Notes under the pieces: generated by a model
The model's database searches: none
Seen by the model: only the letters and a program-made list of their open reading frames with translations
What the model was told of the DNA's origin: nothing
From: Campylobacteraceae bacterium
GTDB lineage: Bacteria; Campylobacterota; Campylobacteria; Campylobacterales; Sulfurovaceae
Length of the DNA: 46,774 bases
Assembly: GCA_027080995.1 (NCBI GenBank)
Contig: JALWNT010000060.1
Span: 1 to 46,774 of the forward strand
Reading direction: 5' to 3'
Program-made: the position numbers and the translations under genes
Part shown: positions 2,247 through 20,943 of the stretch, one piece after another
How the letters are laid out: every line of letters begins with the position of its first letter
Position numbering within the stretch: the stretch's first letter is position 1

Positions 2247-2590
2247 GAATGAGGAATGAGGAATGAAGAGTGAGGAACCGAAATATAGGAACTAGTAACG
2301 AGTAACTAGTAACTAGAAACCGATCCCGTAGCATGGGATTGCTATCCCACGAATTGATGGAGGATTGAGAATTGAGAATTGAGAATTTCGTGGCGTTACT
2401 TTGCAACTCGGTTTTATGGAGGCGGGGCTTCAGTCCCGCAATGCAGGGCTGAAGCCCTGCCCCCAATGACCAATGACCAATGACCAATGACTGCGCTGCA
2501 GGCGCACACAATGTCCAATGCCCAATGCCAATCCGCGAAGAGAATCTCACTGCCTTTTTCGGTTCCTCATTCCTCATTTCTCATTCCTCG
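2247..2590. repeat. Second large cluster of 7-bp tandem arrays
   Basis: The 356-bp gap between the 88-aa gene and the NosL-like gene is almost entirely repeat. GAATGAG-type units lie at 2247-2274, ACTAGTA-type at 2291-2318, TTGAGAA three times at 2365-2385, CCAATGA four times at 2463-2490, CCAATGC-type at 2514-2527 and TTCCTCA-type at 2563-2590. The last array contains the stop codon of the NosL-like gene (2581-2583), so its final Glu-Glu-stop is written in repeat units. I see no gene here; a 118-codon open frame across it is repeat-derived. Confidence 0.85.
2418..2464. repeat. GC-rich palindromic repeat (copy 1)
   Basis: A block of two adjacent hairpins starts GGAGGCGGGGCTTCAG and ends GAAGCCCTGCCCCC. 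A close relative lies at 44205-44253 near the other end of the window. The element is intergenic and resembles REP-type dispersed palindromes. Confidence 0.7.
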
Positions 2591-3395: not shown

Positions 3396-4124
3396 CTACT
3401 GGCCGATCGACTTGAGATAGAGAGCGACCGCCTGAAGAGGCTTGCCTTTGAGGCCGCCGCAGAGATTGTTGGCTTTGATGTAGGCTTTGGCTTCGGCAGC
3501 GGTGGCGAATTTCTTTTCGATAGGCTTGCACATCTTTTTGTAGATCTGCTCCCCTTTCTTCGCCATCATTGCTTGACGCTTGGCGATCATCGCCGCCTCT
3601 TTGTCGAAGTTGGCTTCGACCATCTTGAGCACCTTGGCATAAGGCATCACCTTCCCGCCGTACTCTTTGGCGAATTTCTCCGCCGCCTCTTTGGTTCCGA
3701 AGGCGTATTTGCTCACCTTGGACATCGTACCGGGCTTGGAGCTGCCCACGACATACCAGGCTTTTTCGGCGGGGATGAACTTGAGCGTGCTATTGTCGAC
3801 GACCTGGACATCGGTGACCTTCTTGCCCGATTTCATCTCTTCGACCAGGCAATGAATCGAGCAGAACTGCTCCATTTTGCCGTTGACTTTGGCGGCGTGG
3901 TTGGTCCGATAAAACATTGGCAGAGTCATTCCGCATTTGGGGCAGAACATTTTCGCGGGTCCCTTTTGGAGGATCTGCGCTTTATCCATCGGAACCATCC
4001 GGAAGTTTTTGGGCATCATTTTGCCGTGCCCCATTCCGTGGTGCATTCCCCGTCCCATTCCTTCGGCCTGAAGGCCCACGACCATCGCTACGGCCAATGC
4101 CGCGATCAACCACAGTTTTTTCAT
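3396..4124 (-). CDS. Secreted Met/His-rich NosL-domain protein with C-terminal cytochrome-like domain
   Basis: This 242-aa protein has a signal peptide (residues 1-20), a Met/His-rich stretch suited to copper binding (GMGRGMHHGMGHGKMM, residues 22-37), a NosL domain (about 42-170; C61, C64 and C88-x3-C92) and a helical C-terminal domain (188-242; C199, C222) like a heme-less class I cytochrome. The NosL part is very similar to the one embedded in the 900-aa fusion at 9491-12193, so the two look like paralogs. A periplasmic copper chaperone role is inferred from the family. Its promoter has the shared tandem TAACACT-type box with a 24-nt leader, which links it to the TonB/receptor regulon. The start ATG at 4124 follows a good AAGGAG site. 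Confidence 0.87.
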   Translation of the reverse strand: MKKLWLIAALAVAMVVGLQAEGMGRGMHHGMGHGKMMPKNFRMVPMDKAQILQKGPAKMFCPKCGMTLPMFYRTNHAAKVNGKMEQFCSIHCLVEEMKSGKKVTDVQVVDNSTLKFIPAEKAWYVVGSSKPGTMSKVSKYAFGTKEAAEKFAKEYGGKVMPYAKVLKMVEANFDKEAAMIAKRQAMMAKKGEQIYKKMCKPIEKKFATAAEAKAYIKANNLCGGLKGKPLQAVALYLKSIGQ

Positions 4125-4154: not shown

Positions 4155-4185
4155 ATTGTAAAACAGTAGTGTTAATTTTATGTTA
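4155..4185 (-). promoter_or_regulatory. Promoter of the NosL gene: tandem 11-bp-spaced box plus -10
   Basis: On the minus strand, TAACATA (4185-4179) and TAACACT (4174-4168) are exactly 11 bp apart. Seven bases later comes a -10 element, TACAAT (4160-4155). The predicted start of transcription near 4148 leaves a leader of about 24 nt. The same arrangement occurs at three other promoters in the window and is the layout expected for an OmpR/PhoB-type activator that replaces the -35 contact. Confidence 0.65.
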
Positions 4186-4281
4186 AAAAGTCTTCGTATT
4201 TGACGAAAATCTCTCTTATATAACTCATTTAATCGTCAGATAAATGAATGATGTAATTTCTGTTAATTTTCGGACTGCATT

Positions 4282-4313
4282 TAACACTCAATTAACACTG
4301 GATATATGAGAAT
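4282..4313 (+). promoter_or_regulatory. Promoter of the NosA-like receptor: tandem TAACACT box plus -10
   Basis: Two perfect TAACACT heptamers at 4282-4288 and 4293-4299 are 11 bp apart. They are followed 8 nt later by GAGAAT (4308-4313), a moderate -10. A transcript starting near 4320 would have a leader of about 24 nt carrying the AAAGGAG ribosome site. The regulator is inferred to be the one encoded at 20211-20873, whose own promoter has the same box. Confidence 0.65.
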
Positions 4314-4343: not shown

Positions 4344-6353
4344 ATGAAAAAAACAGTGTTACTCTCCGTCGCAGCCGCTGCGACACTCTGGGCCGCCCCC
4401 TCCGAGGATCTGGGAGCGATCGACGTCAACGCCACCGCGTTCGAAACCACCGTGGTGGAGGATGTAGCCGGCGAAGAGATCCGCTCGGCCGACGTCGCCG
4501 ACGCACTGGCACAGAAAGTCCCCGGTGTCACCCTGGTGCGCCGCAGCGCCATCGCCAACGATATCATCGTCCGGGGACTCAAAAAAGACAATCTCTCCGT
4601 CACCATCGACGGAGCCCAGATCTACGGCGCCTGCCCCAACCGGATGGATCCGCCCATCTCCCACATTCTGGCCAACAACATCGACAACATCGAAGTGACC
4701 GAAGGCCCCTTCGACGTCACGGAGCCCGGCGCCCTGGGCGCTTCGATCAAAATCAACACTCTCAAACCCGCCAAAGAGTTCGCCGGAGACATCAATCTGG
4801 GGCTGGGCTCCTGGAAATACAGCAAACTCTCGACCAACCTCAGCGGCGGGACCGATACCTTTCGCTTTATGCTGAGTCTCTCCACCGAAACCAGCGATCA
4901 GTACAAAGACGGCAACGGCGACACCTTCGCCGAGCAGCAGGATCGCTACATCCGTGAGCATCCCTCCGCCGCCGGAATGGGGTATCTCCCCCAATACCGG
5001 GATCTGAAAGCCTATACCAAATCGACGATGATGGGCAAAATCTTTTGGGATGTCACCGACGATCAAACCCTCCAGATGAGCTACACCGCCAACCGCAGCA
5101 ACAACATCCTCTACCCCAATACACCGATGGATGCCGACTACGACAACTCCGACCTCTTCGATACCAAATACATCTTCCGCAATCTCGGAGCATACTCCGA
5201 CAAGCTGACCCTCCACTACTATCGGACCAAAGTCGACCACCCGATGTCCAACCGATATCGCAAATCCAGCCTGATGAAAGGGGTGATCAAGCACTGGTTG
5301 AGCACACAGGTCGACGGAGCCGCTCTTGTCAACGAGTATCGGATCGGGGAACACAACCTCGAAAGCGGCCTGGAGTTCAGCCGACGCAACTGGGACGGGA
5401 AATATTACAAGAACGACAATCCCTTTCCGGCTGCTTTGTTTCACAGTATCTACGATGTCGATACCGACGACTACGGCGCCTATACCAAAGACCGCTTTGC
5501 AACGGGCAGTGTGGATTGGAATCTGGGCATACGCCTGGATCACTACAAGATCGACACTCCCCGACCCGGCGATAGGGATCGCACTTTCGACGGCATAAGC
5601 GGCAATCTGCTGGCCTCTTACCGACTGAACGAAGCGTGGACACTCTTCCTGGGAACGGGAAGCTCTATGCGGGTCCCCGATCCCAAAGAACTCTACTACC
5701 GAAACAAAACGGGAGTGATGGTCGGTAACGACAATCTCGATGCGGTACGCAACTACGAAATCGACACCGGAGCCGAATGGAATGTCGACGATCTCAGCCT
5801 CCGCCTCAAAGGTTTCTACAATTATCTCAGCAACGACATTCTCTACAATGCCACAGCCCAGAAATATGAAAACGACGACGCTTACATTTATGGAGTCGAA
5901 CTCACCGGCAGCTACACCTACAGCGATACGCTCTATTTCGACGGCAGCTTCACCTGGTTGCGGGGCAAAAAGAGAGATCCTCTCAGCGGCCAGAGCGATA
6001 CCGACTTGCCCGATATCTCCCCGATGAAAGTCACCCTCGCCGCCAACTGGTCCCCCTGGGAGGATACGATGCTGCGTGCCGAATTTATGGCTTCCGGGCG
6101 CTGGAAGCACATCGATAGCGACAACGGCGAGCAGGTCATCGCCGGCTGGGGTATCGTCAATCTCAAAGCCCAAAAGAGCTGGGGAGAGCATCTGGAGCTG
6201 ACGGTCGGTATCGACAACCTCTTCGACAAAACCTACGCCGTCTCCAATACCTACAAGGATCTCACTCTCATCTCCGGCGGCACCGACGCTCCGACGATGC
6301 TTCTCAACGAACCCGGACGCTACGTTTACGCCAACATCCGTTACAAATTCTGA
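4344..6353 (+). CDS. nosA: TonB-dependent outer-membrane receptor, NosA/OprC-like (copper)
   Basis: This 669-aa protein has a signal peptide (about 1-17), a TonB-box-like segment (EDLGAIDVNA), a plug domain with VRGLKKDNLSVTIDGAQ, and a 22-strand-type barrel ending in the aromatic signature RYVYANIRYKF. The plug contains YGACPNRMDPP, a motif I know from the OprC/NosA family of copper receptors. NosA is required for copper supply to nitrous oxide reductase in Pseudomonas stutzeri, and a nos cluster lies 16 kb away here, so copper import is the best inference. Energy would come from TonB-ExbBD (18380-20155). A Shine-Dalgarno AAAGGAG precedes the ATG. A stem at the stop codon may end transcription. 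Confidence 0.85.
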   Translation: MKKTVLLSVAAAATLWAAPSEDLGAIDVNATAFETTVVEDVAGEEIRSADVADALAQKVPGVTLVRRSAIANDIIVRGLKKDNLSVTIDGAQIYGACPNRMDPPISHILANNIDNIEVTEGPFDVTEPGALGASIKINTLKPAKEFAGDINLGLGSWKYSKLSTNLSGGTDTFRFMLSLSTETSDQYKDGNGDTFAEQQDRYIREHPSAAGMGYLPQYRDLKAYTKSTMMGKIFWDVTDDQTLQMSYTANRSNNILYPNTPMDADYDNSDLFDTKYIFRNLGAYSDKLTLHYYRTKVDHPMSNRYRKSSLMKGVIKHWLSTQVDGAALVNEYRIGEHNLESGLEFSRRNWDGKYYKNDNPFPAALFHSIYDVDTDDYGAYTKDRFATGSVDWNLGIRLDHYKIDTPRPGDRDRTFDGISGNLLASYRLNEAWTLFLGTGSSMRVPDPKELYYRNKTGVMVGNDNLDAVRNYEIDTGAEWNVDDLSLRLKGFYNYLSNDILYNATAQKYENDDAYIYGVELTGSYTYSDTLYFDGSFTWLRGKKRDPLSGQSDTDLPDISPMKVTLAANWSPWEDTMLRAEFMASGRWKHIDSDNGEQVIAGWGIVNLKAQKSWGEHLELTVGIDNLFDKTYAVSNTYKDLTLISGGTDAPTMLLNEPGRYVYANIRYKF

Positions 6354-6380: not shown

Positions 6381-6619
6381 GTGATCGACATTTCCAACCT
6401 CTATTCCATTTATCCTATTTTTATGCATTAGAAAGTACTTCAGATGTGTCGATGCTCGGTGCATAGGTATGCCGAAGGCATTGCAGACGGCCGATGGCAT
6501 TCGCTTCGATCGCCCATACTGTCGATGATCGATGCAGATGAGGTATTGGTTAATGCATCGAATGGGTTTAAAGCATTACATATTGTTTTGTTATTAAAAA
6601 ATGAAGATTTTGAAATGCT
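6381..6619. other. Intergenic spacer between the two TonB receptors
   Basis: No gene is convincingly supported in this stretch. A 67-codon open frame at 6444-6647 has no recognisable family and no good ribosome site, and it runs through the promoter of the next operon. The last 100 bases are AT-rich and lead into that promoter. Confidence 0.5.
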
Positions 6620-6650
6620 TAATAGATACTTAACATTGTTTCCGTAGGAT
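6620..6650 (+). promoter_or_regulatory. Promoter of the seven-gene operon: weak plus strong heptamer and -10
   Basis: TAACATT (6631-6637) matches the shared heptamer at six of seven positions. Eleven bases upstream lies a weaker half, TAATAGA (6620-6626). Seven nt after the strong half comes TAGGAT (6645-6650) as a -10. The inferred leader to the ATG at 6683 is about 26 nt. The geometry matches that of the other three promoters in the proposed regulon, though the upstream half is degenerate. Confidence 0.5.
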
Positions 6651-6682
6651 TTATGTCGCATAAACGTCAAGGAGGAGAAAGA

Positions 6683-8821
6683 ATGAGAAATAGGATTTTT
6701 TTGAGTGCGGTGCTTGCCTGTTCTCTGGTAGCAGCGGAAGAGATGGAGCTGGGAACCATCTATGTCGAATCGTCCACAATCGAAGGGATCGCACCTGACG
6801 CCAGAACGGAAGCATCGACCGTCAACGATATCAACGAAACAACGATCGAACAGATCGACCCTAAAAATATCAACGACATACTGCAGACCATTCCCGGAGT
6901 CACGGCGGATGTACGAAGCGACTCGGTGGAGATCCATATCCGTGGGGTCAACCAGCAGGAGTTTATGTGGGAGGACACCGGGGTTGCGGTGGTCATAGAC
7001 GGAGTACCGGTGATGCAAGATGGAGGGAAAGTGCGCGGGATCAACGTCGACGAGATCGAATCGATCAAAGTGATCAAGGGAAGCGCCGCCTATCTCTACG
7101 GGGCCGACGCCTCTGCGGGAGCCATCATCATCACGACCAAGAAACCCAAAGCCGGAAGCGGAATCGATCTGGGTGCGGAAGCCGGAAGCTACGGCTTCCA
7201 GGACTATCGAGCCAGAGCCTACAAAACGACCGACCGCTACGCCTTCAACATTTTTGCGAATTACAAAAAAGAGGATGGATACTGGTATCAGACCTCCAAC
7301 TACATGAAGACGGGAAATGGAAAGTTCACCTATTACATCGACGAGAGTAGCGATCTGACCCTCAACGTCGCCGTCACCAAAGGGTACGAAGAGACAACAA
7401 GAGGCGGAGTAACCGGAATCACGGAGGCCCGGAAAAATCCCAAGGGGAACGACGAGGATCTGCCCTGGGGGAAAGATTACTACTCCGACATCTACCGATA
7501 CTCCCTCACCTACAACAAGGATTTCAGCGATACGGCGAATCTGCAGGTGATCGGATACTACTACAAGGACCTCTACAACTACAAATCCTCACCTCAGGAT
7601 ACGAATGGTGACGATATAGAAGACACCTATACAAGGGATAATGACGACGACATCAAACAATACGGGATCAAATCGGAGTTCCGGGATAGTATCGGGGATT
7701 TCGCCTATATGCTGGGCCTCGATATCGGAAAAAGAGAGTATGACGAATACCGGGAAACGATCGCTCAGTACTCAAGTTATAACTGGTGGACACATTCTTA
7801 TGAAACATATTATGTTGGAGAAAGCAGTCTGGATCAATCAACGGAAGAAATCTACGCCGTTTACGGGGAAGGAAAATACCAGGTGACCGATCGATTCACC
7901 GCTGTTTTGAACCTTCGCTACGACTACAACAAATATTCGATAGATGTATTGAATCATGAGTACGATGATACAAACGATCAATGGATCGATACGCGAACAA
8001 CGGGAAGCGAAGATTTCAGGAATCTTACCTATCGTGTCGGTGCGACCTACGAACTGAGCGAAGACCATATTCTCTACGGCAACGTCGCCACCGGATTCCG
8101 AAACCCATCCGTGACCCAAAAGGCCGACAATCCGGACCTGGACAAAGAGACTTATATCACCTATGAAATCGGTTTGAGAGGGAATATGGCGTACGGCCTA
8201 CGTTATCAGGCGAGCGCATTTATCACCGATACAAAAGACATAATTTCGAAAGCAGACGGTACCTACAACTGGGACAGTGACAATTTTGCCAATGTGGGAG
8301 ACGCCCGAAACCAGGGGATCGAACTGAGCCTGAAGAGCGATCAGAGCAAACAGCTCTCCTTCAGCCTCGCGTATACCTATCTCAACGCATACTATACCTC
8401 GCATGATCCCTTCTACATCCAGGGGATCACCGATGCAAACGGCGATCCGTTGAGTTTTGATGTGACCGGCAACAAGCTGCCGAGGGTCCCTCATCATAAG
8501 GTCGATTTGATCGTCAACTACCAATTCCTTCCCAAGTGGAACCTGATGACGGAACTCTACGCCCAGAGTCGATACTACGCGGACGAAACAAATTTTGTGA
8601 GCATGCCGGGGTATGGGAAAGTGAATCTACGGCTTGATTATAAGCTCAACAAGAACTTAAACTTCTATATGAAGCTGGACAATGTCCTGGACAAGCAATA
8701 TTTCCGAACGGTCTATCTCTTCAGGGACAGAAACCACGACGGCAAGCTGGATGCGGAAGACGCCACCATCACCGTAGATCCCGGCCGGGTCTTCTATGCG
8801 GGGATCCGCTACAAATTCTAA
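6683..8821 (+). CDS. TonB-dependent outer-membrane receptor (substrate unknown)
   Basis: This 712-aa receptor has a signal peptide (MRNRIFLSAVLACSLVAA), a TonB-box-like ELGTIYVES, a plug (about 45-165; GVTADVRSDSVEIHIRGV, YLYGADASAGAIIITT) and a barrel ending RVFYAGIRYKF. Two acidic loops are notable: DTNGDDIED in mid-barrel and DRNHDGKLDAED near the C-terminus, the latter with EF-hand/dockerin-like spacing that may bind calcium. I chose ATG 6683 because GGAGGAGAAAG precedes it; an upstream in-frame ATG has no such site. It lacks the NosA-type CPNRMDPP motif, so it probably takes up something different, perhaps a metal chelate. It is the first gene of the operon, only 3 bp before the next. 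Confidence 0.85.
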   Translation: MRNRIFLSAVLACSLVAAEEMELGTIYVESSTIEGIAPDARTEASTVNDINETTIEQIDPKNINDILQTIPGVTADVRSDSVEIHIRGVNQQEFMWEDTGVAVVIDGVPVMQDGGKVRGINVDEIESIKVIKGSAAYLYGADASAGAIIITTKKPKAGSGIDLGAEAGSYGFQDYRARAYKTTDRYAFNIFANYKKEDGYWYQTSNYMKTGNGKFTYYIDESSDLTLNVAVTKGYEETTRGGVTGITEARKNPKGNDEDLPWGKDYYSDIYRYSLTYNKDFSDTANLQVIGYYYKDLYNYKSSPQDTNGDDIEDTYTRDNDDDIKQYGIKSEFRDSIGDFAYMLGLDIGKREYDEYRETIAQYSSYNWWTHSYETYYVGESSLDQSTEEIYAVYGEGKYQVTDRFTAVLNLRYDYNKYSIDVLNHEYDDTNDQWIDTRTTGSEDFRNLTYRVGATYELSEDHILYGNVATGFRNPSVTQKADNPDLDKETYITYEIGLRGNMAYGLRYQASAFITDTKDIISKADGTYNWDSDNFANVGDARNQGIELSLKSDQSKQLSFSLAYTYLNAYYTSHDPFYIQGITDANGDPLSFDVTGNKLPRVPHHKVDLIVNYQFLPKWNLMTELYAQSRYYADETNFVSMPGYGKVNLRLDYKLNKNLNFYMKLDNVLDKQYFRTVYLFRDRNHDGKLDAEDATITVDPGRVFYAGIRYKF

Positions 8822-8824: not shown

Positions 8825-9478
8825 ATGGAGCTCAGCGGCTATCTGTCGATCTACATCATCGGCCTCTCCTACGGTGCGACGGCCTGTATGCTCTCTTGCA
8901 TGCCGTTTCTGGCACCGCTGCTCTTCAGCGGCTCCAACAGCACCAAAGAGGCGATGGGGGTCATTCTCCCCTTCAGTTTCGGAAGGATCTTCAGCTATAC
9001 CCTGCTCTCGATCCTGGCCTTCATGAGCTCCTATTGGCTAAAAAGAGTCCTGGATGACCGTGTGATCTCCAGTGCTCTACTCGGCTCGGTGACCGTGCTC
9101 ATGGGGATCTATATCCTCTACCAAAGTTTCGGGGAGAAACGTAGCTGTGACAGCGTAAGAAGCGCGGGCGGTGGGCAGAATCATCTGGGCCTCTTCACGA
9201 TGGGGGCAAGCATGTCTTTGAATCCATGTACGCCGGTATTGGCTCTTCTTGGATTTTCGATCAACGCCGGCGCGTTGAGCGTGGCTTTTTTCGAAGGAAT
9301 CTTTTTCGGCCTGGGTGCCGTGACCTTTTCGATTCTCTTCTACGGTTTCGTCTTTTCGAAACTGGTACGGGGACTTGTGGCGCAGTTTCAGCCCTACAAG
9401 ATCTGGATCGAACGGGGAAGCGCCCTCTTTCTCTTGGTACTGGGCGTAGCGGTTTTCAACAATCAGCTGAAGCTGTAA
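8825..9478 (+). CDS. CcdA/DsbD- or TauE/UreH2-like six-helix membrane protein
   Basis: This 217-aa integral membrane protein has about six helices in two similar halves. Each half begins with a Cys/Pro motif: CMLSCMPFLAPLL (C21, C25) and SLNPCTPVLALLGF (C134). This is the pattern of DsbD/CcdA-type proteins that carry thiol electrons from cytoplasmic thioredoxin to the periplasm, and of related TauE/SafE (UreH2) families often annotated as metal or sulfite exporters. C108 lies in the central loop. Thiol transfer could keep the NosL cysteines of the next gene product reduced; that is inference. Spacing is 3 bp to the receptor and 12 bp to the fusion gene, so it sits inside the operon. Confidence 0.75.
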   Translation: MELSGYLSIYIIGLSYGATACMLSCMPFLAPLLFSGSNSTKEAMGVILPFSFGRIFSYTLLSILAFMSSYWLKRVLDDRVISSALLGSVTVLMGIYILYQSFGEKRSCDSVRSAGGGQNHLGLFTMGASMSLNPCTPVLALLGFSINAGALSVAFFEGIFFGLGAVTFSILFYGFVFSKLVRGLVAQFQPYKIWIERGSALFLLVLGVAVFNNQLKL

Positions 9479-9490: not shown

Positions 9491-12193
9491 GTGGTCGACT
9501 TTATACGTAGGGACAAAAACGATATCTATTCCAAAAAGATACTCGGCTTTCTGTTCAAAAATCAAAAGTTTCTGTTTATATTCCGGGTGATCGTAGCCGG
9601 GCTCTTCTTTTATGCGATCTTTCTGGGATTCTATGAACCTTCCAAAGAAAACACCTTCACCACGGCGCTCTTCTGGTCCATTTTCTGGCCACTTTTTATG
9701 GTGGTGACTCTCCCGACCTTCGGAAGGATCTTCTGCGGGATCTGCCCCCACGGGTTTCTCGGGAAATATATCACCCGGATCGGTCTCAAAAAGAAAATGC
9801 CCAAATGGATGCAAAACCGCAATATCGGGATCCTGCTGCTGGTGATCGGATGGTGGGGTGTCTACTACGTCTTCCCGGGAATCTACCGAACTCCCCTGGG
9901 AACGGCGCTTCTCTTTACCGTGATGACCCTGTTGGCCTTCGGGCTCTATTTTCTCTACCGGGATATGAGCTACTGCAAATATATCTGCCCCATCGGCACA
10001 CTTACCCGCGCCTATGCCAAGCTCTCCTTTACCTGGCTGGGTACCTACCAAAGTGCCTGCAGCGAGTGTCGGACCTTCGAATGTGCCACCGCCTGTCCCT
10101 ACAATCTCAAACCCTTCACCTTCGACAAACGCAACTCCATGACCGATTGCACCTTGTGCATGGAGTGCAGCCACGCCTGTGAAGCGATCAGCTTCAAAAT
10201 CAAAAAACCCTCCTTTTCTCTCTTTTCCCGTTTTCAGATCGAAAAGGCGGAGGTATGGGCCTATCTCCTGATTCTTGCTTCGATCCCCATCGCCATGGCC
10301 TTTCATCACGGCATCGGCCGAAGCAACGCGGCGGGGGAGATGATCTGGTCGAAAACCGCCGGGATCTTCCAGTCCCTCTTTGGACCGGGGGGCGATTGGG
10401 TAGGGCTCTTCGCCTTCCTCTACGCGATGCTTTTTACGATCCTGGCGGGAACGATCGGCATGTACCTGGCGTCAAAAATCCTCAAAAGACCGTTCAAGGA
10501 GGTCTTTTACTCCCTGGGATACTCTTACGCGCCGCTCTTTATCCTCTCCTCTCTCGGGCACGCTCTGAGCAGCTTCTTTACCGGAGGATACGAAAGGATC
10601 GTCGAAGGCTTCGCCTGGGCCTTCGGTTTCAGCGTCAATGTGGAACCTCTGGCCAGAAGGGGCGACGATTGGCTGATGATCTTTTCCGCCTTCAAGTGGA
10701 TCGGCATCGCATGGGCACTGCTGCTGCTTTACAAGCGCATGAAGCTCATCAAAGCGGAAAAGCTGCGCAAAATCCTGGCCTTCCCGTTCGCCGCATCCTT
10801 GATCATCTTCTTTTTGGGGGTGAATATGTACCGAAATCACATCATCGATACCTACGGAAGAGCCTCCGGCGGCCACGGGCATATGCACCGAAGCGGCAAA
10901 ATGTTCCAAACAGTCCCTCCCAAGAAGGCGACGATCCTCCAAACCGGCCCGAGGAGAGAGTCCTGTGCCGTCTGCGGGATGAAACTTGCGATGTTCTACA
11001 AAACCAACCACGCGGCCGAATCCGACGGCAAGGTTCGCCAATACTGTTCCCTCCACTGCCTGGCCGCGGACAAGACGATCAACAAACGGAGCCTCTCCGA
11101 ATTGAAGGTGGTCGATACCGCCTCCTTGAAATTCATCAATGCCGACCAAGCCTTCTATGTCGTCGGCAGCAGAAAAAAGGGGACGATGAGCCGGGTCAGC
11201 AAATATGCCTTCGCCAAGCGGGAGGATGCAGAGCGCTTCCGCCGGCAATTCGGGGGGAAGATCGTAGACTTCGACACCGCCCTGAAAATCGCCGAAAGAG
11301 ACTTCGAAAAGAACTCCTTCGTAGCGAAACCGGAGGATACACTCTTTTTCACGACCCGAAATCCCGCCGCTAAGACACGGGGCGGTATGGGGATGCGACA
11401 CGGCGGCATGCACCGCAGCGGCCGGCAAAATGCGGTACCCTCCGCATCACTCTGGCTGGCGGGCAAAAGCCCGGCAAGGCCCAAATGCGTCCGAAACGTA
11501 GAGGGGGTCTTCTATCTGCTGAATGCCGACGGCAGGAGAGGCAAACCGCGAATCAGCAAAAAGAACGGCTGCACGAAAGTGAGTTTCGCCGTACCCAAAA
11601 GCGGATATTATCCTCTCTATTACGTACGTTCCAACCAAGGGCTCGTCAATATCGCCAAATATGAGTACAAAAGAATCGATCACAGCGGAGAGGAGGTTTT
11701 CACCAAAGCGGTCGTCGCTCCCAAAACCCTCAAAGAGATCCCCATCGACCTCCAGCGCCTTAAAGATCACGAAGACTCCTTCTACTCCCGACTCCACAGC
11801 GGAGAGAAGGTCCGATTCAGAGTCTTGAAAGACGGCAGGCCGTTGGAGAAGGCGAGAGTCACCCTCCAAACCCAATTCGGCTGGCAGAAAACGGTCCGGA
11901 CCGACAAAAACGGCATCGCAGAATTCCAACTGATCAACGACTACGATCCGGAGTGGAAAAAATTCAACAAACGATTTCGGGAAAAGTACCTTGTGGTCGC
12001 CACCTACGACAAGGGAACTCAGAGGTACAAGATCAGCTACAGCGGATTTTATCTCCCCGCTCGGGAACGTTATCAATCCTACGCATACGCGCTTCTGATC
12101 TTTTTGGGTCTGTCGGTCGTCATCGGCGTGGGAGTCTTCGCATACCGGTACCGGGTGCAGAAACCTTTTCGGGAGGTGAGCTTCGATGAATAA
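9491..12193 (+). CDS. Membrane polyferredoxin (NosR/NapH-like) fused to NosL and DUF4198-like domains
   Basis: This 900-aa protein combines three modules. Residues 1-450 are a polytopic ferredoxin protein with CGICP (82-86), CKYICP (162-167), a CSEC...CATACP group (190-203) and a ferredoxin CTLCMECSHAC motif (220-230), then five or six more helices. Residues 455-615 are a NosL domain bounded by Met/His-rich segments (GHGHMHRSGKM before, GGMGMRHGGMH after), with C492-x2-C495 and C519-x3-C523. Residues 650-855 are a periplasmic beta domain whose LHSGEKVRFRVLKDGRPL part resembles DUF4198 (metal-transport-associated). A last helix (865-887) anchors the C-terminus. It lacks the FMN-binding domain of true NosR. 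The start is GTG at 9491 with GGAG upstream. Likely role: coupling membrane electron flow to periplasmic metal handling. Confidence 0.8.
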   Translation: MVDFIRRDKNDIYSKKILGFLFKNQKFLFIFRVIVAGLFFYAIFLGFYEPSKENTFTTALFWSIFWPLFMVVTLPTFGRIFCGICPHGFLGKYITRIGLKKKMPKWMQNRNIGILLLVIGWWGVYYVFPGIYRTPLGTALLFTVMTLLAFGLYFLYRDMSYCKYICPIGTLTRAYAKLSFTWLGTYQSACSECRTFECATACPYNLKPFTFDKRNSMTDCTLCMECSHACEAISFKIKKPSFSLFSRFQIEKAEVWAYLLILASIPIAMAFHHGIGRSNAAGEMIWSKTAGIFQSLFGPGGDWVGLFAFLYAMLFTILAGTIGMYLASKILKRPFKEVFYSLGYSYAPLFILSSLGHALSSFFTGGYERIVEGFAWAFGFSVNVEPLARRGDDWLMIFSAFKWIGIAWALLLLYKRMKLIKAEKLRKILAFPFAASLIIFFLGVNMYRNHIIDTYGRASGGHGHMHRSGKMFQTVPPKKATILQTGPRRESCAVCGMKLAMFYKTNHAAESDGKVRQYCSLHCLAADKTINKRSLSELKVVDTASLKFINADQAFYVVGSRKKGTMSRVSKYAFAKREDAERFRRQFGGKIVDFDTALKIAERDFEKNSFVAKPEDTLFFTTRNPAAKTRGGMGMRHGGMHRSGRQNAVPSASLWLAGKSPARPKCVRNVEGVFYLLNADGRRGKPRISKKNGCTKVSFAVPKSGYYPLYYVRSNQGLVNIAKYEYKRIDHSGEEVFTKAVVAPKTLKEIPIDLQRLKDHEDSFYSRLHSGEKVRFRVLKDGRPLEKARVTLQTQFGWQKTVRTDKNGIAEFQLINDYDPEWKKFNKRFREKYLVVATYDKGTQRYKISYSGFYLPARERYQSYAYALLIFLGLSVVIGVGVFAYRYRVQKPFREVSFDE

Positions 12194-13175
12194 GATCCGA
12201 GACGCCATCAACCGTATCGATCTGAGGAAATTCCGCTTCTGGATTCAGCTCTTTTTTTTCGTACTCTTCGTCTACGGCGCTTATTTTTCCATCGACCTGG
12301 GGAGGGAACTTCCGATCTTCTCCTGCGGATACAACCGGGAAACCGGCGGCACCTGCTATTTCCTGGCGCTTCAGCATCAGTTGGCCCGCCCGTGGGACCG
12401 TCTCTTCAGCACCGCGAGTATCGGAGTCTTGACCGGGTTCCTGACCTTCCTGGCCTGGTTCATCATTTTCAATAAGGCTTGGTGCGGCTACGCATGTCCT
12501 CTGGGAACCCTGCAGGATTGGATCACGAGTTTCAGAAAAATGCTCAAGATCCCCTACGGCACCTATTCCCAGTCCCAGTACAAGGTCCTGAAAAAGATCA
12601 AATATATCTTTCTCTTCATCGTCATCGTCTTTCCCCTGCTTCTGGGGATCGGACTCCTTGACGGCGAGTGGAGAGGAGCCTTTTGCAAAATGTGTCCGGG
12701 GCGATTGATCACTCCGCTCTTTAGCGGAGATGTTTCCCAGTGGACGATCGACTTTTCCACCAATACCGCCATCTTTCTGACTACTTTCGGATTGGGATTT
12801 ACGGTCCTTTTCTTCGTGGGATCCTTCATCAAAAAACGATTCTTCTGCTTCTTCTGCCCCATGAGCGCCATGCATTACATCTTCAGCGACTGGGCCCTGT
12901 TTAAATTGCGAAAAGATGGAGAGAAGTGTACGAAGTGCGGGGATTGCTACAACGTATGCGATATGCAGATCAAGGATATCGCCGACGATGTCACGAGCAA
13001 AAACATCCTTCGGGACGATTGCATCTTCTGCATGAAATGTGTCGCCGCCTGTCCCGAGGAGGATGCGCTTCATGTGGACATACTGAACATGAAAGTCTTC
13101 ACCTCCACCAAGGGCGGATTCGCCAAACGGATGGAGATCGACAGTTTCAAAAAAGAAGAGAGCGATGAAAAATAG
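12186..13175 (+). CDS. NapH-like membrane ferredoxin
   Basis: This 329-aa inner-membrane protein has about five helices, the paired CGYACPLGTLQDW and CFFCPMSAMHY motifs of the NapH/NosR/RdxA polyferredoxin family, and two C-terminal [4Fe-4S] motifs (CTKCGDCYNVC and CIFCMKCVAACP). An extra CKMCPG motif lies between. Such proteins pass electrons between the quinone pool and cytoplasmic or periplasmic redox partners. The gene overlaps the fusion gene by 8 bp and the HgdB-like gene by 11 bp. I infer that it supplies low-potential electrons to the activator/double-cubane pair that follows, which would be an unusual partner for this family. Confidence 0.83.
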   Translation: MNKIRDAINRIDLRKFRFWIQLFFFVLFVYGAYFSIDLGRELPIFSCGYNRETGGTCYFLALQHQLARPWDRLFSTASIGVLTGFLTFLAWFIIFNKAWCGYACPLGTLQDWITSFRKMLKIPYGTYSQSQYKVLKKIKYIFLFIVIVFPLLLGIGLLDGEWRGAFCKMCPGRLITPLFSGDVSQWTIDFSTNTAIFLTTFGLGFTVLFFVGSFIKKRFFCFFCPMSAMHYIFSDWALFKLRKDGEKCTKCGDCYNVCDMQIKDIADDVTSKNILRDDCIFCMKCVAACPEEDALHVDILNMKVFTSTKGGFAKRMEIDSFKKEESDEK

Positions 13176-14445
13176 ACGAAAGATCGAAACGCAGGAAGAG
13201 AGACAAAACCGCCACAAAGCCATGGAGAGCGTGGCGATCCTGGACAAACTCAAAAACGACTTCTCCAAGCCCCTGGAGGCAATGGACTACTTCTACGATC
13301 TCTTCGAACGGGTCTACTGCAAGCGGGAGTCCCTCCACGAGCGAAGCGTCAAGGTAGGAACCCTCTGCATCCAGGTCCCCTACGAGATCATCTACGCTCT
13401 GGACGCCGTTCCGGTTCGTCTGTGCAACGGATTCCACACCGATGACGAGATCGGAAGCGATTTCGCCCCGTCAAAAGCCTGCCCCCTCGTCAAGGCCACC
13501 GTGGGTCAGTTCAGCTCCGGCAATTTCGTCGACCGGCCGGACCTGGTGGTCTCTCCCACCACCTGCGATCAAAAATCCAAGGCGGGCGCGATCATCGAAA
13601 GCATGGGATATCCGATCTACGATATGGAGTTTCCACGCACGAAAGAGAGCGAAGAGAGTCGGGAGTACTGGCGCAGAAGTGTCAGGAAATTCGCCAAAGA
13701 TCTCTCCAAAGAGCTGGGGGTGAAGCTGACCCGGAACAAACTGAAAAAGACAATCCAGCGGATCGGGTACGCCCAATACCTCTATCACCGCCTGAACACT
13801 TTGCGAAAGAGCGACAACCCTCCCATACTCGGGGTGGATATGTTTCTGGTGACGAATGCATTTTTCTTCGACCGGCTGGAGAGCTGGATCGAAGCGGTAG
13901 AGAGACTCGTGGAGGAGTGTGCCGCCAAAACCGAAGAGGAGAGTGCAACGTACCAAAACAGCCCGAGAATCGTCTATACAGGTTCGCCTCCCATCTTTCC
14001 GAACTTGAAAATCCCTCTACTCATCGAGCAGTCGGACGGCTTGATCGTGGCGGACGAAACCTGCTCCTCCAACCGGATGTTCAACGACATGATCAGTGTC
14101 GACGAGTGGTTTCTCTACGATATGGTCGATTCGATCTCGGACAAATACCTCAAAGGGTGCACCTGTCCGATCTTCACCAAAAACAGTGATCGGATCCGAA
14201 GGATCATCAATCTTGTAAAAGAGTATCATGCCGAAGGAGTCGTCTATCAGGCCTTTGCGGGATGTCAGGTTTATGAGATGGAGCAACGAAGCGTTCTTGG
14301 CGCGATGGAAAAAGAGGGAATCCCCATCCTCTATCTGGAAAGCGATTACAGCCCAAGCCACTTGGGACAACTGACCACGAGAATCGAAGCGTTCATCGAA
14401 TCTCTGAAAAACCGAAGGAGAAAGAAAGCATGCGCTATTTCGTAG
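13165..14445 (+). CDS. HgdB-family / double-cubane-cluster-like protein
   Basis: This 426-aa soluble protein belongs to the 2-hydroxyacyl-CoA dehydratase component (HgdB/BadD/BcrB) superfamily: KVGTLCIQVPYEIIYALDAVPVRL near the N-terminus, ACPLVK, SPTTCDQK, ADETCSSNR, GCTCPIF and FAGCQ. Six cysteines (106, 134, 300, 332, 334, 367) sit in conserved-looking positions. Six Cys is the number needed for an [Fe8S9] double cubane, as in the double-cubane cluster protein of Carboxydothermus, which reduces small molecules at ATP cost. No second HgdA-type subunit, CoA-transferase or acyl-CoA gene is nearby, so a fermentative dehydratase role is unlikely. It overlaps its activator gene by 16 bp. The true substrate is unknown. 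Confidence 0.8.
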   Translation: MKNRRKIETQEERQNRHKAMESVAILDKLKNDFSKPLEAMDYFYDLFERVYCKRESLHERSVKVGTLCIQVPYEIIYALDAVPVRLCNGFHTDDEIGSDFAPSKACPLVKATVGQFSSGNFVDRPDLVVSPTTCDQKSKAGAIIESMGYPIYDMEFPRTKESEESREYWRRSVRKFAKDLSKELGVKLTRNKLKKTIQRIGYAQYLYHRLNTLRKSDNPPILGVDMFLVTNAFFFDRLESWIEAVERLVEECAAKTEEESATYQNSPRIVYTGSPPIFPNLKIPLLIEQSDGLIVADETCSSNRMFNDMISVDEWFLYDMVDSISDKYLKGCTCPIFTKNSDRIRRIINLVKEYHAEGVVYQAFAGCQVYEMEQRSVLGAMEKEGIPILYLESDYSPSHLGQLTTRIEAFIESLKNRRRKKACAIS

Positions 14446-15236
14446 GAATAGATATCGGATCGACCGCGATCAAGATCGCGATCATCGACGAAAACGACGA
14501 CCTGGTCGGATACAAAATCAGTGCCAGCGGCAGTATGTTCTACAAATACGCCAAGGAGACGCTGGCCGATCTGTTGCGATCATTGGACTTGACGGAGAAG
14601 CAGATCGTCTATACCGTGGCCACGGGATACGGTCGGAAGCTCTTCAAGGAGGCCAACGAAAAGATCAGCGAAATCACCGCCAACGCCATCGGCGCGAGAG
14701 CGGCGGCCAAGGGTGAGTGCGAGATCCGGACCATCATCAATATCGGAGGGCAGGACTCCAAAGCCATCTCCATCGACAACGAGGGGAATGTGGTCAATTT
14801 CGCCATGAATGATCGATGTGCGGCCGGGACCGGAAAATTTCTGGATGTGGTGGCGATGAACCTTGAGATCGGTGTCGATGAGCTGGGCAAGTATCACTTC
14901 ATGTCCCAAGGAACTCCTCTGTCGATCAACAGTACCTGCGCGGTCTTCGCCGAATCGGAGATCATCGGTTTGCTAGGAAACAATCACTCCATCGAAGATA
15001 TCGTGGCCGGAGTCCATTACTCCATTGCGAAACGGATCATCAAACTGGTCAAACGCGTCGGCATCAAAGACGCTATCTATTTCGATGGGGGACCCGCACT
15101 CAACGAAGGATTGGTCAACGCAATCGAGAATGAACTCTCCAAAGAGATCTACATCCCCAAACACCCCCAGATCACCACCGCCTTCGGTGCGGCCATTCTG
15201 GCAAGGGAATCCTATGGGTATCTACAAAACTCCTGA
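14430..15236 (+). CDS. ATP-dependent activator / reductase (HgdC/BcrA/BadF family)
   Basis: This 268-aa ASKHA-fold ATPase has GIDIGSTAIK (phosphate-1), NIGGQDSKAI, NDRCAAGTGKF with C130, INSTCAVFAESE with C170, and FDGGPALNEGL. In HgdC the two equivalent cysteines of each monomer hold one [4Fe-4S] cluster across the homodimer, and ATP hydrolysis lowers the potential for electron transfer to the partner. It should drive the HgdB-like protein encoded just upstream. The ATG at 14430 is preceded by AAGGAG 9 nt away. Length and motif order are normal for the family, so this is a working enzyme by sequence. Confidence 0.9.
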   Translation: MRYFVGIDIGSTAIKIAIIDENDDLVGYKISASGSMFYKYAKETLADLLRSLDLTEKQIVYTVATGYGRKLFKEANEKISEITANAIGARAAAKGECEIRTIINIGGQDSKAISIDNEGNVVNFAMNDRCAAGTGKFLDVVAMNLEIGVDELGKYHFMSQGTPLSINSTCAVFAESEIIGLLGNNHSIEDIVAGVHYSIAKRIIKLVKRVGIKDAIYFDGGPALNEGLVNAIENELSKEIYIPKHPQITTAFGAAILARESYGYLQNS

Positions 15237-15253: not shown

Positions 15254-18200
15254 ATGTTTGACAGACTGCTGAAGTTTTTCATTGAAAACTACAAGCTCAA
15301 CTACATTCTATTTTTCCTGATCTTCGGAATCGGAATCTACAGTTACCTCCTCCTTCCCAAAGAGATCTCTCCTGTGGTCGAACCCGATTCGATCACCGTC
15401 CGGGGCAGCTACAGCGGAGCCTCCCTCGATACACTGAACAAAATCGCCGTCGAAGAGATCGAAGCGGAGATAAAGAACATCGACGGAGTCGACAATATCT
15501 CCTCCCGCATCGTTCCCGGCCGCTTCACGATCACACTGGAGTTGAAAAAGGGGGCCGACAAAGCGCGAGTCCAGAAAGAGGTGGAGGATGCTATCAAGCT
15601 CATCCGATCCAACCTGCCGAGCGACATGGATGAACCGACCACCAGCAGCGTCGCACACACCCGGGGGTTGATGCAAGTCTCCATATTCAGCAAAACTCTC
15701 GACAGAGACAGGCTTATCGAGAAAGCCAAAGAGTTGAGGCTGCGTCTCCTGCGCCTGAAAGATATCGCCAAAGTGACCATCTTCGGCGACGCCGATGTCT
15801 ACTATGAGATACTGATCGACGACAAAAAAGCCGAAGCTTACGGCTTGACACAAAAACAGATCGTGGACGCGATCTCCGATGTCTCCTACATCTTTCCTCT
15901 CGGAAAACTCCAAAACAATAAACAGGAACTCTATATCTCCCTGGAAAACCGACAATTGGATGTCGACGGTTTGAAGAACACCCTGTTGGATATCGACGGA
16001 AAAGTCGTGCCGCTCAAAGATGTAGCCAGAGTAACGAAACGATACAGCGACTCCTCTACCCTGGCCAGCATGAACGGGAAAAACGCGATCACACTCTCTA
16101 TTTCGCAAAATCCGCTGGGCAACGCCATCGAAATCTCCCAAGAGGTCAGGAAGCTTATCCGTAGCCTCCGAAACGACGAGGTCAAGTACGAAATCCGCCA
16201 CGACAATTCCACCGTGATCAAGGAGCGACTCGACATCGTCATTTCAAATATTTTGATGGGGATCATACTGATCACGGTCATGACCGCCGTTTTGATCAAT
16301 CTGAGGATGGCGATCGTGATCGCCCTGGGGATTCCCACCTCTTTCGTAATCGCTGCGATCTACTTTTATCTCAGCGGATACAGCATCAATATCAATTCCC
16401 TTATCGGTGTATTGATCGCTATCGGGATCATCGTCGACGATGCCATCGTCATCAGTGAAAACATTCAACAATACATCGAAAAAGGATATCCCCCGAAAGA
16501 GGCCGCCTATCTGGGAACGAAAGAGATGGCCAAACCGGTGGTGATCGCCTCCTTGACAACCATCTTCGCGTTTATCCCTCTTTTGATGCTCACCGGCAGG
16601 CTCGGACAGATCCTGGAGCTGATCCCCATCGCCATCAGCGCATTGGTGATCGCCTCCTTGATCGAATCTTTTCTCTTTCTGCCGATCCACTCTACCCACA
16701 TTCTGGACAAGCGATCGCGCACTCGTTCCTGGAAAGGTGCCGGAGCGATCTACTCAGGAATGCTCGCGGTGGTCATCAACCACCGACGGATCTTTACCGC
16801 GCTCTTTCTACTTGGAACAGTGCTTTTAATCCTTCTGGGGGTCAAAGGATCGCGATTCAAAATGTTCGAACCCTTCGACTCCACCTCCATCAGCATCACC
16901 TTCAAAGCGTCAAAAGAGACAACGCTTCAAGACTCTCTGAAAATTGTACAGGCAATCGAAAAAGATCTTCTGAGACATAAAAAGGAGTTTTTTATCGATT
17001 ACGTCAGCTCTACGGCGGGCTACCGAAGAGGTGAAGCCGGCGGAGCGGAGCTCTATCCCTACGTGGGATACATTACTCTCTATTTGAAAAAGAAGGCGCC
17101 GGAGAATTTTCTGGAGAAGTACATCACCCCCTATCTAAGCTTCTATTATGACCCGACGGACCGAGTCCGCACGGAAAGTTCCCGGCAGATTTCGAAGCGA
17201 CTCCGGAAATTCATCAGGAAAGAGAAGTATAAAGAAAAGTTCCATTTGCGGCAGATCAATGTCCTTGAACGAAGAATCGGTCATACCCCTACGGATATCA
17301 TGATCGGGGTGGTGGGTTCGAACCACAACCGAGTCATCTCCGCCATCCGGATGTTGGAACGCGAACTGAAAGCTCAACAAGCGGTAAAATTCGTCAGCGA
17401 CAATATGAAATTCGGCTCCAGTGAAATCAAACTGAGCCTCAACTCCTACGGCAAAAAGCTCGGGGTGACGCAGCGATACATCGGAGAGTACATCGCCGAT
17501 CTCTACCTGGAAAAGAAAAAGGGAATTATTGCCGATCATAAGGGAGTGTTGGATATCAAAGTCTCCACTGCCTACAAAAACGATATCCAATACCTGAAAT
17601 CCTTGAAGATCCCGTTGAGAAACGGCCAAACCGTCGCTCTGAAAGAGATCTGTGATTTCAAGATCACCCGATCCCTGGAGAAACTGACGAAATACGACGG
17701 ATACGTCACCTTCTATGTCTACGCGAACATCGATCAGGATATCAATACCACGGACGAGGTGCTCTCCAGTCTCCTTCCGACCCTCGAAAAGATACGGAAG
17801 GAGGGATTGAAGTATCGGCTCAGAGGCGAATACCGCCAGAAGAGAATCTTACAAAAAGATATGCTCAAAGCCGTGATTGTCGCCATAGTCCTCATTTTTC
17901 TCTCCATCCTCTATCTCTTCAACTCCATCAAAGACACTCTCATCGTCATGAGTGTCATCCCGCTCTCGTTCCTGGGAGTGCTGATCGGACACAGGGTGAT
18001 GAGCTTTGACCTCTCCATCCCCTCCATCGTCGGGGCACTCGGTCTGGCCGGGGTCATCGTCAACGACGGAATTCTGATGTTGGCGGTCATCAAAACCGCA
18101 CAGGAGCGGGGAGAGATGATCGCTCTGGCGGCACGACGATTCCGGCCCATCATCTTGACGACGGTGACGACGGTGATCGGTCTCTCCTCTTTGATCTTCT

Positions 18201-18328
18201 TCGCGACGGGGCAGGCTGTGACCTTCCAACCCCTGGCGATCTCCCTGGGCTTCGGCCTGATCTGGGGAACGGTCTTAAATCTCTTTTATCTACCGGCGAT
18301 CTATGATGTTTTGCATCGATACGATTAG
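15254..18328 (+). CDS. RND-family efflux permease
   Basis: This 1024-aa inner-membrane transporter has the duplicated RND layout: one helix, a large periplasmic loop, six helices, then the same again. The proton-relay aspartates are present in TM4 (IGIIVDDAIVISENI). The matching second-half motif is GVIVNDGILMLAVI. It is the last gene of the operon, 17 bp after the activator gene. No membrane-fusion protein or outer-membrane channel is encoded in the window, so it either borrows partners or works alone. Substrate class (metal, organic, or reaction product of the upstream enzymes) is not readable. Two hairpins follow its stop. Confidence 0.88.
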   Translation: MFDRLLKFFIENYKLNYILFFLIFGIGIYSYLLLPKEISPVVEPDSITVRGSYSGASLDTLNKIAVEEIEAEIKNIDGVDNISSRIVPGRFTITLELKKGADKARVQKEVEDAIKLIRSNLPSDMDEPTTSSVAHTRGLMQVSIFSKTLDRDRLIEKAKELRLRLLRLKDIAKVTIFGDADVYYEILIDDKKAEAYGLTQKQIVDAISDVSYIFPLGKLQNNKQELYISLENRQLDVDGLKNTLLDIDGKVVPLKDVARVTKRYSDSSTLASMNGKNAITLSISQNPLGNAIEISQEVRKLIRSLRNDEVKYEIRHDNSTVIKERLDIVISNILMGIILITVMTAVLINLRMAIVIALGIPTSFVIAAIYFYLSGYSININSLIGVLIAIGIIVDDAIVISENIQQYIEKGYPPKEAAYLGTKEMAKPVVIASLTTIFAFIPLLMLTGRLGQILELIPIAISALVIASLIESFLFLPIHSTHILDKRSRTRSWKGAGAIYSGMLAVVINHRRIFTALFLLGTVLLILLGVKGSRFKMFEPFDSTSISITFKASKETTLQDSLKIVQAIEKDLLRHKKEFFIDYVSSTAGYRRGEAGGAELYPYVGYITLYLKKKAPENFLEKYITPYLSFYYDPTDRVRTESSRQISKRLRKFIRKEKYKEKFHLRQINVLERRIGHTPTDIMIGVVGSNHNRVISAIRMLERELKAQQAVKFVSDNMKFGSSEIKLSLNSYGKKLGVTQRYIGEYIADLYLEKKKGIIADHKGVLDIKVSTAYKNDIQYLKSLKIPLRNGQTVALKEICDFKITRSLEKLTKYDGYVTFYVYANIDQDINTTDEVLSSLLPTLEKIRKEGLKYRLRGEYRQKRILQKDMLKAVIVAIVLIFLSILYLFNSIKDTLIVMSVIPLSFLGVLIGHRVMSFDLSIPSIVGALGLAGVIVNDGILMLAVIKTAQERGEMIALAARRFRPIILTTVTTVIGLSSLIFFATGQAVTFQPLAISLGFGLIWGTVLNLFYLPAIYDVLHRYD

Positions 18329-18379: not shown

Positions 18380-19354
18380 TCAGTGTATGCGATACTGAAG
18401 CGTTACGGAGAGTCTGCGGGGAAGAGAGACGTTGATACCGGAGACGTTTACGGGAAAGGCCTGTTGGACGGCACGCCTGGCCGAGGCGGTAAAGGCTCGG
18501 GGACCCCGGACGCTGATGGAGGCCACACGACCGCTGGGTAGCACAGTGAAACTGACCCGTACCATCCCCTGCAGACGCCGTCGTCTTGCAGCGGGAGGAT
18601 AGCGTTTGTGTCGGGCGATACGCCGTTTGATGCTCGCTAGGAATCGGTTGGCGCTCAGGCTCCCTCCCCTGCGGGCTCGGGAACGAACCGAATCTTTCGA
18701 CGCACGCCTGTTCTTTCGAGTCTTGTGCTTTGGCCGGCTTTTATGCTTTTTTAGCGCTTTATGGACCTTGCTTTTTTTGCGGACCTTCTTTTCCGGTTCT
18801 TTCGGATCGAAGAGCGCCAGCTCCCGATCGTTCAATGGGCGTTTGAGGGATTTGTAGAGTTCCGGATCGCAGGGGGTCACAGGCTCCATCGGCGGCCGCT
18901 CCACAGGCTTCGCCGGGGTTACAACACTGTGAGCGGCCGGCCGGTCGATCGCCACGGCTTCCGGAGTTTTGGGTGCCTCCGGGGCCGGAGCGGGCTGCTC
19001 TCGAACCTCTTTGGGCGGAGGCGGAGGCTCCTCCGGCGGCGCGGGTTCGATCTCTGCAGGCTCTTCTTTGGGGGGTGTCGTCTCCTCGGGTGTCTCTTCG
19101 GGGGTCGGTTCCTCCTGTTCCGGCGGAGTGATCTCTTTGGGGGCTTCCTCTTCCGCCTCGGCGGCTTTGGACGCTTCGGAGTTGACCGTCTGTTTCGCAT
19201 TCTCCCAGGTTTCACTGGCGCGGACAAGGGTCACGGTCGTGCAATGGGCCTCTTCCGATATCCGGGTCCAGCGGTGCAAAAAGATCCAAGCAGAGCCCGC
19301 CAGTAGCAGATAAACGCTCAAAGCGTAAAGAAGCGCATGGAAACGGAGATTCAT
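18380..19354 (-). CDS. tonB: TonB energy-transducing protein
   Basis: This 324-aa protein has one N-terminal membrane helix (about residues 7-27), a long Pro/Glu-rich periplasmic spacer (about 75-160), then an unusually basic Lys/Arg-rich stretch (about 188-245). It ends in a C-terminal TonB domain with RYPPAARRRRLQGMVRVSFTVLPSG. It transmits proton-motive force from ExbBD to outer-membrane receptors, here most obviously those at 4344 and 6683. It overlaps exbD by 4 bp. The basic block after the acidic Pro/Glu spacer is a strong charge asymmetry that may contact the peptidoglycan; that is speculative. Confidence 0.9.
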   Translation of the reverse strand: MNLRFHALLYALSVYLLLAGSAWIFLHRWTRISEEAHCTTVTLVRASETWENAKQTVNSEASKAAEAEEEAPKEITPPEQEEPTPEETPEETTPPKEEPAEIEPAPPEEPPPPPKEVREQPAPAPEAPKTPEAVAIDRPAAHSVVTPAKPVERPPMEPVTPCDPELYKSLKRPLNDRELALFDPKEPEKKVRKKSKVHKALKKHKSRPKHKTRKNRRASKDSVRSRARRGGSLSANRFLASIKRRIARHKRYPPAARRRRLQGMVRVSFTVLPSGRVASISVRGPRAFTASARRAVQQAFPVNVSGINVSLPRRLSVTLQYRIH

Positions 19355-20873: not shown

Positions 20874-20943
20874 AAGCAACCGACTCTCCCTCTCCCGACG
20901 TAACGGCTACGCGCTCTCCCCTTTGCGCACAACCATTCTTGGG

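Follow-up and report, generated by a model that had tools for sequence, protein, structure and literature searches.

A membrane polyferredoxin carrying NosL and DUF4198-type domains, probable copper-reduction arm of a TonB-dependent regulon in Campylobacterota

Contig JALWNT010000060.1 of a Campylobacteraceae bacterium (assembly GCA_027080995.1), whose 46,774 nucleotides are together referred to here as the window, carries a gene at positions 9,491 to 12,193 for a protein that joins a membrane polyferredoxin, a NosL domain and a DUF4198-type beta domain. We conclude that, within a TonB-dependent regulon for copper acquisition, this fusion is probably the membrane-bound arm that reduces and captures copper on the periplasmic side, and that the functional unit is the operon with its double-cubane reductase, rather than the NosL domain. 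An earlier note on this DNA, made from the sequence alone, had proposed that such a protein couples electron transfer to metal delivery or reduction; a coupling of electron transfer to metal handling is supported here as the best reading, backed by a regulon of copper type. We found no paper on the combination of polyferredoxin, NosL and DUF4198; a single paper had two of the three and, as far as its title and abstract tell, it concerns another subject. Nor did any paper bring together three of TonB, DCCP (double-cubane cluster protein), polyferredoxin and Sulfurimonas.

The open reading frame (ORF) of the fusion runs uninterrupted through 900 codons. A full-length copy with 97% identity is present in an independent Nitratifractor metagenome-assembled genome (MAG), and the architecture is repeated in Sulfurimonas, Sulfurospirillum and Arcobacteraceae MAGs; an assembly join or frameshift was rejected on these grounds, and the triple fusion seen in the earlier note is thus genuine. 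The polyferredoxin has ten transmembrane (TM) helices, matches Fer4_5 of Pfam twice (44.8 bits against a cut-off of 22, E 1.2e-11), and bears the motifs CGICPHG at residue 82 and CKYICPIG at 162 as well as 4-Cys ferredoxin motifs at 190 and 220, that is, two 4-Cys motifs and two further membrane Cys pairs. Twelve Cys residues together with His87, His273 and His357 are invariant across 53 relatives. The NosL domain, which the earlier note had called from the letters, was recovered by the Pfam profile PF05573 at residues 489-595 (58 bits against a cut-off of 24, E 1.6e-15). It carries a clade-II-type CXXCXM site, the copper motif described for NosL (PMC6530538), with a CxM pair and a second conserved Met (C495, M497 and M566), and C495, M497, H507, C519, H522, C523 and M566 are invariant in 29 NosL relatives. 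The description of the domain as rich in Met and His was misplaced, since the Met/His-rich stretches are two linkers (residues 461-471 and 631-644) and not the NosL core.

The assignment of the beta domain was settled by comparison of a predicted structure with solved ones. The Pfam profile PF10670 matched residues 767-814 at 27.6 bits, below the cut-off of 34 (E 3.8e-6), a match at E<=1e-3 was obtained for 20 of 34 aligned relatives (best 1.1e-8), and a profile made from the alignment of this part retrieved nothing useful from the sequences in the PDB (best E 0.12), so that the link came from fold comparison only. In an AlphaFold2 model of the fusion (mean pLDDT 72.9, pTM 0.47), residues 613-856 matched Zcp with Zn/Cu/Co (Z 17.7, 2.8 Å over 185 residues) and the Ni-bound DUF4198 protein of Ideonella, 9gcb (Z 14.6), and residues 481-604 matched NosL 7og7 (Z 12.4), all three being far above the unrelated rows of the comparison. 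The DUF4198-like domain of the earlier note therefore stands as a modelled fold, but not as a match above the family cut-off. The N-terminal His metal site found in 79% of the DUF4198 family (PMC12537917) is not available in the fusion, where the domain is internal and is preceded by a His/Met linker.

Hydropathy and the positive-inside charge pattern predict a cytoplasmic N terminus, a cytoplasmic ferredoxin loop, and a periplasmic segment of residues 447-864 between the last two helices, which agrees with the periplasmic location first suggested for the NosL and DUF4198 domains. A helix at about residues 341-360 was missed by hydropathy, but lies within a long helix of the AlphaFold2 model. 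The NosL part of the fusion is accordingly an internal domain and not a small exported lipoprotein.

The link to copper comes from the genes that accompany the fusion. The first of two TonB-dependent receptors (TBDT1) retains all four ligands of the CxxxM-HxM copper site of OprC (PMC8610252) when aligned to 6fok, while its score against TIGR01778 (155.8) does not reach the cut-off of 472. An OprC-like receptor is present in 31 of 32 genomes with the polyferredoxin compared with 83 of 298 overall, a near-perfect co-occurrence for which p is 1.3e-18 when phylogeny is ignored; counted by genus the figures are 15/15 and 29/58 (p 2.6e-6, finer phylogeny being ignored). The genome has four strong NosL matches, each of them in the window.

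The second line of evidence is a common promoter motif, the direct repeat TTAACA-N5-TTAACA. The pattern was derived from the regions upstream of the second receptor gene (TBDT2), where it occurs with at most one mismatch in 19 of 23 loci against 0.21 expected, a count that is partly circular because the pattern was read from those very regions; its use elsewhere is not circular. Four sites lie in the window (0.06 expected; four were reached in 0 of 100 shuffles), and the only two exact copies in the whole genome are both located at the NosL/OprC pair. At one mismatch the genome holds nine sites compared with six for a reversed control, so that lone sites of this kind are weak. In all 10 loci compared, among them the window and its near-copy, the motif stands before free NosL. 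Eight of nine further genomes have it before the OprC-like gene, between −57 and −62; it also precedes DCCP clusters that lack the polyferredoxin, and it recurs across the phylum Campylobacterota. Its presence before 5 of 8 related regulator genes suggests that the OmpR-type response regulator of the window is the regulator that acts through it. The repeat may resemble the PhosR box of Campylobacter jejuni. The regulator gene is separated from the nos cluster described below by a gene for a small PAS-domain protein (21024..21545, minus strand), and no histidine kinase was identified beside the regulator.

The operon itself is conserved (Table 1). Among polyferredoxin loci with enough flanking sequence, those with DUF4198 have a NapH-like gene downstream in 24/24 cases, DCCP in 23/24, a DsbD_2 gene upstream in 25/26 and a TonB-dependent receptor upstream in 20/23, and DCCP accompanies none of nine loci without DUF4198. 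For the long fusions found in the 298 genomes, a DCCP gene lies at a distance of about 3-4 kb in every case (13/13). The DCCP of the window scores 336.9 bits against the NCBIfam NF040772 cut-off of 350, which its operon orthologues in genomes G201, G205, G271 and G289 exceed, and it matches the 6eno/7yyl proteins over nearly its full length (E 8e-62). Proteins of this kind reduce small molecules, namely acetylene, azide and hydrazine, reactions whose physiological meaning the literature calls unclear (PMC11971306), and our literature search returned no report of DCCP in a copper-type regulon. The genes for ExbB, ExbD and TonB, recognised by sequence, are located inside the operon in Sulfurimonas loci; in the window they are convergent with it, just past its end, together with the OmpR-type regulator. 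Four loci (L072, L073, L076 and L080) keep TBDT-DUF4198-NapH-DCCP-ATPase-DsbD_2 without a polyferredoxin, from which we recognise two modules: DUF4198-NapH-DCCP on the one hand, and on the other the polyferredoxin, whether or not it carries NosL. Tandem TBDT-DUF4198-NapH sets with one common DCCP pair were seen at L072:3411-16001 and L081:1-8635, some of them with a distant DUF4198 branch of 16-20% identity to the domain of the window.

Table 1. Positions of the fusion, its domains, its operon and the putative regulon partners in the window
Feature	Position	Strand	Remarks
Polyferredoxin-NosL-DUF4198 fusion	9491..12193	+	900 aa, GTG start
Polyferredoxin membrane part, residues 1-445	9491..10825	+	
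His/Met-rich linker, residues 461-471	10871..10903	+	GHGHMHRSGKM
NosL domain, residues 489-595	10955..11275	+	CAVCGM 492-497, YCSLHC 518-523
His/Met-rich linker, residues 631-644	11381..11422	+	GGMGMRHGGMHRSG
DUF4198-type beta domain, residues 613-858	11327..12064	+	followed by last TM helix, 865-883
TonB-dependent receptor 2 (TBDT2)	6653..8821	+	first gene of operon
DsbD_2/CcdA-like membrane protein	8825..9478	+	C21, C25, C108, C135 invariant
NapH-like membrane ferredoxin	12186..13175	+	
DCCP, double-cubane [8Fe-9S] reductase	13165..14445	+	8 invariant Cys
DCCP reductase-type ATPase (BcrAD_BadFG / CoA_E_activ)	14430..15236	+	
RND permease	15254..18328	+	last operon gene
OprC/NosA-like copper receptor (TBDT1)	4344..6353	+	CxxxM (GACPNRMD at 95) and HxM (DHPMSN at 298) conserved
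Free NosL protein	3396..4124	-	242 aa
Second free NosL protein	2581..3276	-	downstream of first free NosL, same direction; 115.6 bits
TonB	18380..19354	-	
ExbD	19351..19728	-	
ExbB	19718..20155	-	
OmpR-type response regulator	20211..20879	-	best NCBIfam match heavy-metal regulator TIGR01387, 137 bits (cut-off 279)
Direct repeat, free NosL	4170..4186	-	exact, upstream
Direct repeat, OprC-like receptor	4281..4297	+	exact, upstream
Direct repeat, TBDT2/fusion/DCCP operon	6619..6635	+	1 mismatch, upstream
Direct repeat, regulator-ExbB-ExbD-TonB	20959..20975	-	1 mismatch, upstream

The architecture was followed through a tree of 51 polyferredoxins. One scan of genome contigs, with patterns suited to close relatives, returned Campylobacterota only, and no claim of absence from other phyla is attached to it. 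The polyferredoxin stands alone in 19, is joined to DUF4198 in 20, to NosL and DUF4198 in 10, and to NosL in 2; the tree requires 4 changes for DUF4198 and 11 for NosL, and DUF4198 is the stable partner of the polyferredoxin, NosL not being the defining part. The fused NosL domains group together (90/99), apart from free NosL, a pattern from which we take NosL to have probably been fused once and lost repeatedly. The polyferredoxin-DUF4198 protein at L042:8037-10400, which is without NosL, still has KLFQSVPAEAATIV from the edge where that region starts, a remnant of the kind expected after an in-frame deletion. At L065:9001-10484 the polyferredoxin ORF is split into two adjoining ORFs of 250 and 229 aa.

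By their profiles, the fusion falls outside the NosR and CcoG families and the NapH subfamily. The FMN domain of NosR is N-terminal, and the earlier view that a copper-chaperone domain has replaced it here is not borne out: similarity to the NosR profile is marginal (13.9-16.7 bits, cut-off 1000, residues 155-227 only), Pfam gave no FMN-domain match, both extra domains lie on the C-terminal side, and 19 of the 51 polyferredoxins in the tree have nothing appended to them. CcoG membership was rejected on the TIGR02745 score of 8.4 bits (cut-off 316.7), there was no FixG_C match, and the NapH subfamily cut-off of 213 was not reached by the polyferredoxin (29-30 bits). A true CcoG is encoded elsewhere in the same genome (493 bits).

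The window also carries a clade II (Sec-type) nos cluster at 21687-31942 on the minus strand, with NosZ (864 bits), NosD (413 bits), NosF/NosY ABC genes, NosG/NosH-like ferredoxins, cytochrome c genes and NosL-like genes. In all, five NosL-type modules are found in 22 kb (2581-3276, 3396-4124, 10955-11275, 21687-22229 and 23095-23667). A nosZ gene is enriched in, but not required by, genomes with the fusion (9/13 against 89/298, p 0.003). In two genomes (G038, contig C15, and G311, contig C1) the nosZ matches are split in two pieces, one with an in-frame TAA, and the gene may therefore be decaying or misassembled there.

From these data one could envisage the following route. Free or chelated copper would enter the periplasm through the OprC-like TBDT1 and TBDT2 with the help of ExbBD-TonB, and the polyferredoxin, with its NapH-like and CcdA-like partners, would carry electrons outward across the inner membrane. 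At the periplasmic face these electrons would convert Cu(II) to Cu(I), or else maintain copper and thiols in the reduced state; the NosL domain would accept Cu(I), and the DUF4198 domain with the His/Met linker would bind or present the metal. Cu(I) could then be passed on to copper proteins of the periplasm, for instance the clade II NosZ encoded nearby. The DCCP and its ATPase might be a source or a sink of low-potential electrons for a difficult reduction tied to the DUF4198 module; this would call for a very stable complex that has to be opened, and otherwise DCCP would have some different function. More specifically, ATP-activated electrons of DCCP might pass through the NapH-like and polyferredoxin carriers to the periplasm, or act on the imported ligand, so as to free copper from a very stable complex. 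We regard this last proposal as tentative and put it forward with low confidence. Copper specificity, the direction of electron flow and the role of an ATP-driven reductase are inferred.

Several points weigh against assigning the fusion to copper reduction. Simple cupric reduction leaves the DCCP pair unaccounted for, because the Cu(II)/Cu(I) step needs no ATP-driven low-potential electrons, and CcoG itself is reported to reduce copper at the cytoplasmic face. The DUF4198 proteins known so far prefer Ni (PMC12537917) or occur in ferric-reductase clusters (PMC8238504, PMC11870441), and the solved structures nearest to TBDT2 belong to receptors for siderophores or pseudopaline. Many relatives in the tree can do without NosL, and NosZ is not an obligatory client, since only 9 of the 13 fusion genomes carry it. 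The co-occurrence p-values are weakened because phylogeny is ignored except at the genus level, and both the signal of the regulator and its binding to the motif are deduced from position.

The most serious competitor, which we nevertheless hold to be unlikely, is iron (metallophore) acquisition, in which TBDT2 would import a ferric chelate, the polyferredoxin, NapH and DUF4198 proteins would form an Fe-S counterpart of the PepSY-DUF2271-DUF4198 ferric reductase, ATP would drive electrons to ferric complexes of very low potential, and NosL would be a side branch. It accommodates the siderophore receptors among the structures nearest to TBDT2, the occurrence of DUF4198 in PepSY reductase clusters and Fur regulons, and a possible need for low-potential electrons. 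However, no Fur-box-like site was found in the whole window at <=3 mismatches, which as a missing motif is weak evidence, and the operon has its motif in common with the OprC-like and NosL genes, the former co-occurring with the polyferredoxin almost without exception. Still less probable is a dedicated function in NosZ maturation, in which the fusion would serve as an additional NosL for loading the CuZ site. In favour of it are the presence of the nos cluster in the same window, the confinement of the strong NosL matches to that window and the enrichment of nosZ, but 4 of 13 fusion genomes have no nosZ, the operon lies far from nosZ elsewhere, TTAACA-N5-TTAACA is absent upstream of the nos genes in the window, and many fusions lost NosL yet kept the operon. 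A reading in which DUF4198 handles Ni, Zn or Co, while NosL serves a different metal or is a redox-active thiol domain, would suit the Ni affinity of the Ideonella protein (Kd 18 nM; PMC12537917) and the Zn, Co and Cu of the Zcp structures; we consider it improbable, as the N-terminal His of the Ideonella site is impossible in an internal domain and the regulon partners are OprC-like and NosL genes. Least probable of all is that the DCCP pair is the real enzyme, a cytoplasmic reductase of some small molecule, organic or inorganic, that is taken up from outside, with the membrane ferredoxins as electron donors and the metal domains as accessories, for although DCCP has the activities cited above and DUF4198-NapH-DCCP clusters occur without the polyferredoxin, the conserved operon has no recognisable inner-membrane importer and the polyferredoxin is found with TBDT and TonB genes where DCCP is missing.

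If the fusion is indeed the copper-reduction and capture arm, it bears on a process, bacterial copper uptake, that is poorly understood, periplasmic copper reduction and hand-over being largely open questions. The presence of an electron-transfer part and a Cu(I) chaperone domain in one protein makes reduction-coupled capture directly testable, and the operon offers a concrete context for double-cubane cluster proteins. Should ATP-driven release of copper by DCCP prove true, it would be the first physiological role for these proteins and would define a system that scavenges metal by ATP-driven reduction. Many of the carriers belong to Campylobacterota that metabolise sulfur and N2O in sulfidic habitats, where copper is presumably scarce and is needed by NosZ and cbb3 oxidase.

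The fusion may work like a reductase of the CcoG or CrpH type, yet it falls outside the CcoG and NosR families. CcoG is a cupric reductase made of a polyferredoxin and a periplasmic Ig-like domain (PMC7558416); with CcoG/RdxA/FixG the fusion has in common the membrane polyferredoxin, two sets of [4Fe-4S] motifs, a C-terminal periplasmic beta-sandwich domain and a proposed reduction of copper, but it has NosL and DUF4198 in place of the Ig-like domain and is coupled to TonB genes. The CrtA-CrpH system of Bordetella pertussis likewise couples a TonB receptor gene with a putative copper reductase of the inner membrane (PMC12914433, PMC13038864), CrpH being a heme protein of the PepSY_TM type whereas the fusion is an Fe-S polyferredoxin whose system adds NosL, DUF4198, NapH-like and CcdA-like proteins and the DCCP pair. 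The PepSY-DUF2271-DUF4198 systems likewise serve metal uptake and place DUF4198 beside an electron carrier that spans the membrane (PMC8238504, PMC11870441); the fusion differs in that it is without PepSY, FMN and DUF2271, its DUF4198 is fused, and the motif is not Fur-like. NosL chaperones agree with the fused domain in fold and CXXCXM motif, but the latter is internal to a membrane protein and has no lipobox, and the likeness to OprC/NosA resides in TBDT1, a regulon partner encoded by a separate gene outside the fusion. Unlike the DCCP/reductase pair represented by 6eno/7yyl, the DCCP of the window sits inside a TonB operon. Finally, in CopZ of Archaeoglobus fulgidus, too, a copper chaperone is linked to a Cu(II)-reducing Fe-S domain (PMC7558416), but CopZ is cytosolic and is built from other chaperone and Fe-S domains.

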